Assembly (NCBI GenBank): GCA_030590165.1
Contig: JAUUZA010000006.1
Coordinates: forward strand, 1 to 26,232
Direction of reading: 5' to 3'
DNA from: Candidatus Altarchaeota archaeon
GTDB taxonomy: Archaea; SpSt-1190
Length of the DNA stretch: 26,232 nucleotides
A program made the position numbers and the translations under genes. Positions 18,845 through 23,491 of this stretch are shown here, in pieces. The notes beneath the pieces are model-generated. The model had not been told where the DNA came from. It was given only the letters and a program-made list of their open reading frames with translations, and did no database searches. Within the stretch, counting starts at the first letter, position 1. Every line of letters begins with the position of its first letter.

Positions 18845-19537
18845 ATGGGACAAAAGCTTGGTCAACACTTCCTAAAAGATGTGCGTGTTGCTAAATTTAT
18901 TGTTGATTCGGCTCAAATAAAGGAAAACGAAATTGTTCTTGAAGTCGGACCAGGAAAAGGTATAATTACACATTTAATTGCAAAAAAAGCCAAAAAAGTC
19001 ATAGTAGTTGAAAAAGATAAAAGACTAAAACCCTTTCTTGACAAATTACCTAAAAATGTTGAAGTATTATATGGAGACATACTTCAAATGAATTTTCCAA
19101 AAGTTGATAAAATTATTTCAAATCTTCCCTTCTACATTTCATCACAATTCATATTCACTATGCCTGCCATTCCAGCAATTCTTGGACTACAAAAAGAATT
19201 TGCTGAAAAAATGGTTGCTACACCAGGTTCAAAAAATTATGGAAGATTAAGTGTGAGTTCACAAATTAAATTCAAAATGAAATTATTGAAAAGTTTTCCC
19301 TCTACTGTTTTTAGTCCACAACCAAAAGTTGCATTATCAATAATCCAAATTGAACCTAATGATTTTTCAGCTTGGAAAACTTGTGAAGAATTTATTCGAA
19401 AAATCTTCCCTTATCCTAATAAAAAAGTTGATAATGCATTAAAATTTGGAGGATACTCCCCACTTGGAATCGAGAAAAAAGTTCGCGAACTAAGTCCTGA
19501 AGAAGTAATTAAGCTTGCCAAAATTTCTTGCCCTTAA
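18845..19537 (+). CDS. ksgA: rRNA adenine dimethyltransferase KsgA/Dim1
   Basis: 230 residues, shorter than the usual 260-270. Dimethylates two adjacent adenines in the 3'-terminal hairpin of 16S rRNA. The N-terminal GQKLGQHFL is the family signature, the SAM-binding motif I is EVGPGKG (33-39), and the catalytic motif IV is NLPF (93-96). The PQPKVALSIIQIEP block starts the small C-terminal domain, which is reduced. In many archaea ksgA follows DUF655; here it is about 4 kb away with its own leaderless promoter. The 3' end overlaps a convergent gene by 29 bases. Confidence 0.93.
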   Translation: MGQKLGQHFLKDVRVAKFIVDSAQIKENEIVLEVGPGKGIITHLIAKKAKKVIVVEKDKRLKPFLDKLPKNVEVLYGDILQMNFPKVDKIISNLPFYISSQFIFTMPAIPAILGLQKEFAEKMVATPGSKNYGRLSVSSQIKFKMKLLKSFPSTVFSPQPKVALSIIQIEPNDFSAWKTCEEFIRKIFPYPNKKVDNALKFGGYSPLGIEKKVRELSPEEVIKLAKISCP

Positions 19538-21527: not shown

Positions 21528-21601
21528 TGCGACTGGCGGGATTTGAACCCGCGTTACCAGCTTGGGAAGCTGGAATCCTAACCAGACTGAACGACAATCG
21601 C
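21528..21601 (-). tRNA. tRNA-Gly (anticodon CCC)
   Basis: A complete 74-nt cloverleaf on the minus strand. Acceptor GCGATTG pairs with CAGTCGC (one G.T pair), followed by discriminator A. The D arm is GTTC/GGAT with GG in the loop, the anticodon arm CCAGC-TTCCCAA-GCTGG with CCC at 21564-21566, the variable loop 4 nt, and the T arm GCGGG-TTCAAAT-CCCGC. CCA is not encoded and there is no intron. CCC reads the glycine codon GGG. A TATA octamer (21626-21633) is 24 nt upstream, which predicts a 5' leader of only a few bases, and a TTTTT run follows the 3' end. Confidence 0.95.
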
Positions 21602-21643: not shown

Positions 21644-21664
21644 GCTAAAAATAAAAAAACAAAA
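21644..21664 (-). terminator. T-rich terminator after the C/D box sRNA
   Basis: Immediately after box D the minus strand reads ATTTTGTTTTTTTATTTTT, an oligo-T tract that would stop archaeal RNA polymerase before the tRNA promoter. Confidence 0.5.
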
Positions 21665-21720
21665 TTCAGATTGCCCATCATTCATCACACCGAAGTCAGA
21701 ATTGGATGTTATCATCACAA
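21664..21720 (-). ncRNA. C/D box guide sRNA (2'-O-methylation)
   Basis: On the minus strand the order is box C GTGATGA (21718-21712), a 12-nt spacer TAACATCCAATT, box D' CTGA (21699-21696), a 7-nt linker, box C' GTGATGA (21688-21682), a 12-nt spacer ATGATGGGCAAT, and box D CTGA (21669-21666). All four boxes match the archaeal consensus and both spacers have the optimal 12 nt that L7Ae, Nop5 and fibrillarin complexes require. By the five-base rule, the D' guide would methylate the G in AATTG(GATGTTA) and the D guide the C in ATTGC(CCATCAT) of their targets, probably rRNA or tRNA; I could not identify them. TTATTTAA at 21741-21748 is a fitting TATA box. Confidence 0.85.
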
Positions 21721-21740
21721 AAAATGAAAAACCGGGAAAT

Positions 21741-21748
21741 TAAATAAT
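21741..21748 (-). promoter_or_regulatory. Possible TATA box for the C/D box sRNA
   Basis: TTATTTAA on the minus strand. The usual 20-21 nt spacing places the transcript start at 21719-21720, one or two bases before box C. Confidence 0.4.
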
Positions 21749-21798: not shown

Positions 21799-22320
21799 AT
21801 GCGACTGCTCATAATGGGGGACACACACATCCCAAATAGGGCCAAAACTATTTCTCAACACGTCCTTAATTTTATTGATGATTTCTCACCTCACGCCATT
21901 CTTTTCACTGGAGACGCCTGCGAACCAGGAGTTTTGATGTTTCTTGAAAAACTGGCTCCCCTTCACGCAGTTCGCGGTAATATGGACCATATGGATTTAC
22001 CTAAAATGTTAAGCCTTGATTTTGGACAAAAAATACTTTTAATACACGGTCATCAATTCGGCAGAGGAAATTATGAAGAACTCACTCGTTATGCCTCTGG
22101 CCACAATATTTTAATTTGTGGTCACACTCACAAACAAGAACATTTTGAAAAAAATGGGCTACTTGTAATAAATCCAGGAAGTATCACTGGAGCTGAAACT
22201 AAGGGGCTTAAACCTCCCGCCACATTTACAACAATTATTATAAAAGCAGGTGTAGAAATTCAAGAGTACGAGGTGAAAGAAGATGGCATACAAAAACAAG
22301 GGTCCAAGGTCGGGAACTAG
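21799..22320 (+). CDS. YfcE/MJ0936-type metallophosphodiesterase
   Basis: 173 residues. A small calcineurin-fold phosphodiesterase with two metal ions. Ligand motifs: GDTH with D8 and H10, GDAC with D39, GNMD with N61, H83 or H85 in IHGHQFG, and GHTH with H109 and H111, then NPGS. All expected ligands are present. The physiological substrate of this family is unsettled; activity on bis-pNPP-like diesters is known for MJ0936. It starts leaderless at 21799, and its last 38 bases overlap the start of L21e, so it is the lead gene of the L21e-RpoF-DUF655 unit, an unusual association. Confidence 0.9.
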   Translation: MRLLIMGDTHIPNRAKTISQHVLNFIDDFSPHAILFTGDACEPGVLMFLEKLAPLHAVRGNMDHMDLPKMLSLDFGQKILLIHGHQFGRGNYEELTRYASGHNILICGHTHKQEHFEKNGLLVINPGSITGAETKGLKPPATFTTIIIKAGVEIQEYEVKEDGIQKQGSKVGN

Positions 22321-22570
22321 GTATAAATTCCAAAAAAAAGTTAGGGGAATGCCTAAAGTAAATAATATGATGAAAACTTTCAATGTTGGCGACAAAGTTG
22401 TCGTAAAACCAGATTCGGGAGTTCATATTGGTCTACCTTATCATAGATTTCAAGGAAATATAGGTTCAATCATATGTAAACGAGGAAGATCTTATCTCGT
22501 AAGTATAAAAGATGGAAAGAAATTGAAAACTCTTATTAGCCATCCAGTTCATTTGAAGAAGGTGTTATGA
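22283..22570 (+). CDS. rpl21e: 50S ribosomal protein L21e
   Basis: 95 residues. The SH3-like L21e fold: YKNKGPRSGTRYKFQKKVR (family: r.s.G.R.ktr.k..k..r), then FNVGDKVVVKPDSGVHIGLPYHRFQGNIGSIICKRGRSYLV, which is diagnostic. GGTGA six bases before ATG 22283 lies inside the phosphodiesterase gene. L21e followed by RpoF and DUF655 is a conserved archaeal arrangement. Confidence 0.95.
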   Translation: MAYKNKGPRSGTRYKFQKKVRGMPKVNNMMKTFNVGDKVVVKPDSGVHIGLPYHRFQGNIGSIICKRGRSYLVSIKDGKKLKTLISHPVHLKKVL

Positions 22571-22899
22571 TGTTTGGAAATGTAATTGAAAAAAGGGAGG
22601 TTTCTATTGCCAAGGCAAAGGAAATTTTGGCAAAAGTTAAAAATCAAAATTATGAACAAAAGCACGCATTTGAATATGCATCAAAATTTGCAAAAACTTC
22701 TTCAGAAGATGCAATAAAAATACTTGAAGAACTAAGAGAATCTGGAATTCCCAGAATAAAAAATAGACATCTAAAAAAGATTGTAGACTTAATGCCAAAA
22801 AAAGCGGACGAGATTAAAGTTATTTTGGCAAAAGAAGATTTAACCCTGAGTAAGGGAGACATAGAAACTATTTTAGATATACTAGCTAAATATAGGTGA
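22567..22899 (+). CDS. rpoF: RNA polymerase subunit RpoF (Rpb4)
   Basis: 109-110 residues. Forms the stalk of RNA polymerase with RpoE (Rpb7). The HRDC-like fold is indicated by VSIAKAKEILAKV near the start, the helix HAFEYASKFAKTSSEDAIKILEEL and the C-terminal IVDLMPKKADEIKVILAKEDLTLSKGDIETILDIL, which matches archaeal RpoF. Two ATGs in tandem (22567, overlapping the L21e stop as ATGA, and 22570) are possible; spacing from GGTGT slightly favours 22570. RpoE is not in the window. Confidence 0.92.
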   Translation: MMFGNVIEKREVSIAKAKEILAKVKNQNYEQKHAFEYASKFAKTSSEDAIKILEELRESGIPRIKNRHLKKIVDLMPKKADEIKVILAKEDLTLSKGDIETILDILAKYR

Positions 22900-22903
22900 T
22901 CAC

Positions 22904-23491
22904 ATGGGAAAAGCAATAATTCTTGATATGTTACCAACTGGAGCACCATTTGTACTTTCTCAAAATGCAGACAGTCAATTGAGAAGACGAGGAGTACGAC
23001 CAGTGAGAGGTGGATACTTAACACTCCCACTTGTTTTTGCATTGGTTAAGGACCGTTTCTTCTTGATTGTGGCAACTTCTTCACTAGATGAAGAACTAGA
23101 AATTGGAAATGAAATTGATCTCAATGATAAAGCAACAATTCCAGCTTGGGCGAGAATTGATTACTCGGACTTGAGCTCTGCAGGAAAATCTGAACTTGAA
23201 GATGTTCTTGATAAAATAATTGAAGAAAATGATGATATTTTTACACACTTTTTCAATAAAGCATCTCCAATAACAACTCGTTTACACTCATTAGAATTAA
23301 TTCCGGGAATTGGAAAAAAACATATGTGGGAAATTATTGAACAACGCCGAAAACCGTTCACAAGTTTAAATGACCTAAAAGAAAGATTACCTCTCGTACC
23401 AAACCCAAAACGTGGTGTAAAAGGGAGAATTTTAAAAGAACTTCAAGAAGATGAAAAATACAATCTCTTTGTTCTGCCAAAAAGAAGGTAG
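22904..23491 (+). CDS. DUF655 protein, helix-hairpin-helix nucleic-acid binding
   Basis: 195 residues. An archaea-specific conserved protein that accompanies rpoF. The N-terminal half is an OB-like barrel (KAIILDMLPTGAPF, YLTLPLVFALVKDRFFLIV) and the C-terminal half has a helix-hairpin-helix at 130-145, LELIPGIGKKHMWEII, followed by RRKPFTSLNDLKERLP, which suggests nucleic-acid binding. The exact role is unknown; gene order suggests transcription or rRNA maturation. The AGGTGATC Shine-Dalgarno site four bases before the ATG contains the rpoF stop codon. In other archaea ksgA usually comes next, but not here. Confidence 0.9.
   Translation: MGKAIILDMLPTGAPFVLSQNADSQLRRRGVRPVRGGYLTLPLVFALVKDRFFLIVATSSLDEELEIGNEIDLNDKATIPAWARIDYSDLSSAGKSELEDVLDKIIEENDDIFTHFFNKASPITTRLHSLELIPGIGKKHMWEIIEQRRKPFTSLNDLKERLPLVPNPKRGVKGRILKELQEDEKYNLFVLPKRR

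Follow-up and report, generated by a model that had tools for sequence, protein, structure and literature searches.

The question raised by this locus, a short minus-strand segment upstream of a tRNA-Gly gene in a 26,232-nucleotide stretch of DNA from a Candidatus Altarchaeota archaeon (hereafter, the window), was whether it encodes a genuine archaeal C/D box sRNA and, if so, which nucleotides its two guides address. The original prediction was of a dual-guide sRNA with four consensus boxes and spacers of exactly 12 nt, preceded by a TATA box, followed by a T-rich terminator and lying upstream of tRNA-Gly. Parsing of the minus strand bore out both boxes and spacers, positions 21718-21666 reading as a complete C/D box sRNA in the order GTGATGA-TAACATCCAATT-CTGA-CTTCGGT-GTGATGA-ATGATGGGCAAT-CTGA, and the complements given for the D' and D guides, AATTGGATGTTA and ATTGCCCATCAT, proved correct. 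A TATA-like element was found on the upstream side and tRNA-Gly(CCC) on the downstream side of the same strand (Table 1). The terminator stood in part: a T-rich run does follow the sRNA, but a generic terminator scan returned no rho-independent terminator. The terminal stem formed by the bases flanking the boxes is nearly absent. With C and C' boxes conforming to RUGAUGA and D and D' boxes to CUGA in the order C-D'-C'-D, guides of 12 and 12 nt beside the D' and D boxes (about 10-12 nt being the defining length), and a fibrillarin gene in the same MAG (G000:C8:9646-10254, E 3.7e-74), the sRNA shows, together with the conservation and rRNA complementarity described below, all the hallmarks of archaeal C/D box sRNAs that sequence analysis could address. 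Fibrillarin is encoded in all 7 family genomes.

Table 1. Elements of the sRNA gene and its flanks, in positions of the window.
Feature	Position	Strand	Remark
TATA-like element TTATTTAAT	21739..21747	-	starts 29 nt upstream of C box; position fits archaeal box A; putative
C box GTGATGA	21712..21718	-	kept in G002, G005, G006
D' guide TAACATCCAATT, 12 nt	21700..21711	-	core TCCAAT identical in four genomes
D' box CTGA	21696..21699	-	pattern match
D'-C' linker CTTCGGT	21689..21695	-	hairpins instead in relatives G006, G005
C' box GTGATGA	21682..21688	-	pattern match
D guide ATGATGGGCAAT, 12 nt	21670..21681	-	core TGATGGGC archaea-wide; own-16S test in 11 genomes
D box CTGA	21666..21669	-	pattern match
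T-rich stretch, possible transcription end	21647..21664	-	sequence only
tRNA-Gly(CCC), downstream neighbour outside sRNA	21528..21601	-	64 nt past sRNA, same strand

The full C/D pattern was absent from 400 Markov-1 simulated windows sharing the dinucleotide statistics of the window, and half motifs, expected at 0.03 per simulated window, were observed twice. Throughout the MAG (G000; 0.72 Mb in 64 contigs), the exact full pattern occurs once, at this sRNA, against none for the reversed-pattern control. Membership of an Rfam family was considered and rejected, the only matches being below-threshold ones to Pyrococcus C/D families; the best of these, RF01139 (Pyrococcus sR2), scored 29.7 bits against a gathering score of 42, the likeness being driven by the boxes while the guide sequences differ.

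A related guide is present in six further genomes, and the expectation that boxes and 12-nt spacers would recur beside tRNA-Gly in relatives held for three of them. A 301-base query matched the sRNA in G006, G005 and G002, as well as tRNA-Gly, and in all three the whole sRNA is kept upstream of tRNA-Gly(CCC) on the same strand, at gaps of 1386, 458 and 610 nt, respectively. The C, D', C' and D boxes are recognisable and the guides are 12 nt long, the box changes amounting to a single substitution in C' of each of the three genomes and a D' box reading CGGA in G002. The D' guides are TAACATCCAATT in G000, CAACTTCCAATG in G006, CAGAATCCAATA in G005 and TTGAATCCAATT in G002, and the corresponding D guides ATGATGGGCAAT, ATGATGGGCAGT, ATGATGGGCTGT and ATGATGGGCGAT. 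Across the four, TCCAAT (D') and ATGATGGGC (D) are invariant, changes in the three relatives being confined to positions outside the cores TCCAAT and TGATGGGC; the linker, in turn, is replaced by hairpins in G006 (CCCCG-CUUCG-CGGGG) and G005 (CCC-CACC-GGG). Searching with the D half retrieved three more genomes: G001 and G004, which carry the D guide CTGATGGGCGAT with different D' guides, and, more weakly, G007, which has a one-mismatch form of the D guide.

The sRNA adjoins a divergent metallophosphoesterase gene in G000, G006, G002, G001 and G004. This gene (21799-22320 in the window) is followed in these genomes by the genes for eL21 (named by position and size rather than by a Pfam match), RpoF and DUF655. 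The tRNA-Gly neighbourhood is partly conserved and not essential; since the gap spans 64-1386 nt and only the operon neighbour is retained in two orthologues, proximity to tRNA-Gly seems incidental. The eL21-RpoF-DUF655 genes occupy 22283-23491 (+) on the other side of the sRNA, and a KsgA/Dim1 (RrnaAD) gene, encoding the enzyme responsible for the adjacent P-site dimethyladenosines of 16S rRNA, lies about 2 kb from it at 18845-19537 (+). At the syntenic locus, the D' guide has been swapped out in L097 (G004) and L101 (G001); that of G004, TGCCATCCTAGT, shows by eye a 9 bp match to 16S CTAGGATGG near helix 11 (h11), as read on the G001 16S.

The original prediction left the targets to a search of rRNA and tRNA. 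Among the 44 tRNAs of the MAG, either guide found poor matches only; matches to rRNA in the N+5 register were found in relatives, on whose rRNA pairing had to be judged because the MAG contains no 16S or 23S gene. The D guide ATGATGGGCAAT fits 16S ACCGCCCGUCA and pairs with 16S GCCCGUCA, its N+5 nucleotide being C1402 (E. coli numbering throughout). Against the usual 16S, the window guide (..GGGCAAT) is mismatched at C1399 and C1400 and forms an uninterrupted run of 8 bp that includes one U-G pair. The D-guide pattern TGANGANTGATGGGCNNTCTGA had 106 matching stretches in a collection of 84,980 species genomes, where chance alone would give about 7 by our own arithmetic, and 78 of the 80 matches listed were archaeal. 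When one mismatch was tolerated and the variable base set to Y, 117 of the 394 archaeal genomes sampled had the core TGATGGGC flanked by C' and D boxes, compared with 1 for the reversed pattern. Pairing was then scanned along the 16S locus of 11 other genomes carrying the D guide, using the 16S genes of those same genomes. The best or tied-best site was AC(C/U)GCCCGUC, with C1402 at N+5, in 10 of the 11 and the second-best in the remaining one, and the summed pairing score was reached once in 20,000 permutations of the guide letters. In the Bathyarchaeota genome, the 16S reads ACUGCCC, with U in place of C1400, and the guide has A opposite, a compensating change that leaves the pairing unbroken. 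An arbitrarily scored scan of the 23S in two genomes gave one site that ties with C1402 (G010) or outscores it (G001). The C1402 equivalent is Cm1376 in Pyrococcus abyssi (PMC7005279), Cm1639 in yeast and Cm1703 in human (PMC11542601); in E. coli the nucleotide is m4Cm, and it is located at the P site (PMC7005279, PMC11542601). Judging from the pairing, the D guide most likely directs methylation of C1402 in 16S rRNA.

The fit between guide and target is imperfect in a recurrent way: the target is nearly invariant, and the guide sets U against G1405 and has a single mismatch at either C1399 or C1400. Among the 80 listed loci, guide positions 10-11 are mostly GA or AG, which produces that mismatch, and the fully pairing GG is rare; guides with C opposite G1405 are present in other archaea, some of them fully complementary. 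The idea that the guide U tracks a G1405A change was not supported, as all eleven genomes tested that have the guide U, G001 included, have G1405. In G005, the 16S (ACACACCGCCCATCAAGCC, L049:2838-2864) carries A at position 1405, where G is nearly invariant; the contig ends within 20 bases of it, and the A may reflect misassembly or a genuine substitution, which would strengthen guide pairing.

For the D' guide, the candidate target is AAUUGGAUUCAA in the 5' strand of 16S helix 31 (h31), present in all family 16S examined and in most others. Pairing to h31 amounts to 8 bp for the window guide (AAUUGGAU), 12/12 for G002 on relatives' 16S, 9 bp for G005 on its own 16S and 6 bp for G006, the N+5 nucleotide being G962 in all four cases. 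Some Thermoplasmata with the same D guide share the D' core as well (AAGAATCCAAAG and similar), with 8 bp in the same register. In two Thermoplasmata (L208:1440, reverse strand; L212:1447, plus strand), the D' guide pairs, besides h31, over 9 bp with the pre-16S leader at TTTGGATTC, about 55-60 nt upstream of the mature 16S. G962 is absent from the 44 modifications of P. abyssi 16S rRNA (PMC7005279), and it is a less certain target than C1402. A real sRNA whose D' guide is drifting, with another rRNA target or none here and the D guide alone functional, would account for the short pairing in the window and in G006 and for the unrelated D' guides of G001 and G004. We regard this as an unlikely reading that nevertheless deserves weight: positions 2-7 of the D' guide, identical in four genomes, coincide exactly with the stretch that base-pairs to 16S AUUGGA, the G002 guide is fully complementary, and the tRNAs of the MAG offer the D' guide no better site.

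A second alternative concerns the D guide, which might, in an otherwise real C/D sRNA, be directed at 16S h11 (GGCYYAUCAG, about position 240) instead of C1402. The guide core does pair with h11 in the 16S of G005 (GCGGCCUAUCAG) and G003 (GCGGCCCAUCAG), and in G001 the two sites come close, with scores of 15 (h11) and 16 (C1402). This site, however, varies among genomes while the guide core is constant, and it falls outside the top three sites in most genomes tested, whereas C1402 ranks first or joint first in nearly all of them and is backed by the compensating change. As the D target, h11 was thus set aside as weaker and more variable than C1402, and we consider it very improbable. A chance match or a decayed, untranscribed copy, to which the weak terminal stem might point, is scarcely credible given the empty simulated windows, the intact boxes and conservation with synteny in several genera.

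Boxes, conservation, in-register complementarity and the fibrillarin gene, taken together, make it highly probable that the locus specifies a dual-guide C/D sRNA that, once expressed, would assemble with L7Ae, Nop5 and fibrillarin into a methylation RNP directed at C1402 by its D guide and at G962 by its D' guide. L7Ae would bind the C/D and C'/D' kink-turns and Nop5 would bridge to fibrillarin, each guide presenting its own N+5 ribose. The D guide is predicted to pair with 16S A1398-A1408, placing the C1402 ribose at the fibrillarin active site, and the D' guide to pair with the 5' side of h31, placing G962. Dual guides tend to link sites that are near each other in folded rRNA, according to Dennis et al. 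2015 (PMC4644070) and Breuer et al. 2021 (PMC7994747), and the location of both C1402 and G962 at the P site fits this tendency. Since both sites lie there, the sRNA may also act as a chaperone, holding the two 16S segments together during assembly.

The likeness to the eukaryotic snoRNAs SNORD43/U43 and snR70, which we take to be the guides for 18S Cm1703/Cm1639, the equivalent of C1402, lies in the target nucleotide, here a predicted one; eukaryotic snoRNAs are longer than the archaeal sRNA. In Arabidopsis, AtU43 guides methylation at the C1402-equivalent nucleotide (PMC11542601). Bacterial RsmI/RsmH likewise yield a ribose methyl on the same nucleotide, as m4Cm1402, but are protein-only enzymes that add an extra N4 methyl (PMC5053481). 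With archaeal C/D box sRNAs, as portrayed in PMC4644070 and PMC7994747, the sRNA has in common the box consensus, two 12-nt guides, the N+5 rule, structurally close (here predicted) rRNA targets, an optional promoter of its own and proximity to a tRNA gene. The same review text (PMC4644070/PMC7994747) reports no single site common to all seven species studied, whereas the present D guide recurs over many phyla. Neither C1402 nor G962 is named in the text of these two sources covered here, and the literature examined, supplementary tables aside in both cases, did not mention an archaeal guide directed at C1402. While the sRNA itself is ordinary in kind, the archaea-wide C1402 guide may be undescribed.

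The partner guide has been exchanged, since in Methanobacteria, Hydrothermarchaeum and archaeon 354-166 the C1402 guide is accompanied by one similar to those of sR41 and sR-tMet. At L121, L112, L134, L149 and other Methanobacteria and Hydrothermarchaeum loci, this partner, carried on the same sRNA, reads ACCCTATGAGC and is similar to Rfam sR41 and to sR-tMet, which serves tRNA-Met; L134 and L149 have the two guides in swapped order. It is conceivable, and we offer it tentatively, that one ancestral D guide, kept across much of Archaea while its partner was exchanged many times, makes Cm1402, that U43/snR70 is its counterpart inherited from a common ancestor, and that the recurrently imperfect pairing (U facing G1405, plus a mismatch at either C1399 or C1400) was selected to tune turnover.

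Bacteria and eukaryotes carry a ribose methyl at C1402, as does at least P. abyssi among the archaea, and the position is universally important in the ribosome. Archaeal guides are said to evolve fast, and the D guide is unexpectedly well conserved; among them, a guide for C1402 with a range covering Altiarchaeota, Thermoplasmata, Archaeoglobi, Methanobacteria, Micrarchaeota and Bathyarchaeota would stand out as a rare fixed point. Its signature, a C' box followed by NTGATGGGC and a D box, could serve to annotate an RNA gene that is unlisted in many genomes of archaea, and provides a testable link between the archaeal C1402 guide and eukaryotic U43/snR70.
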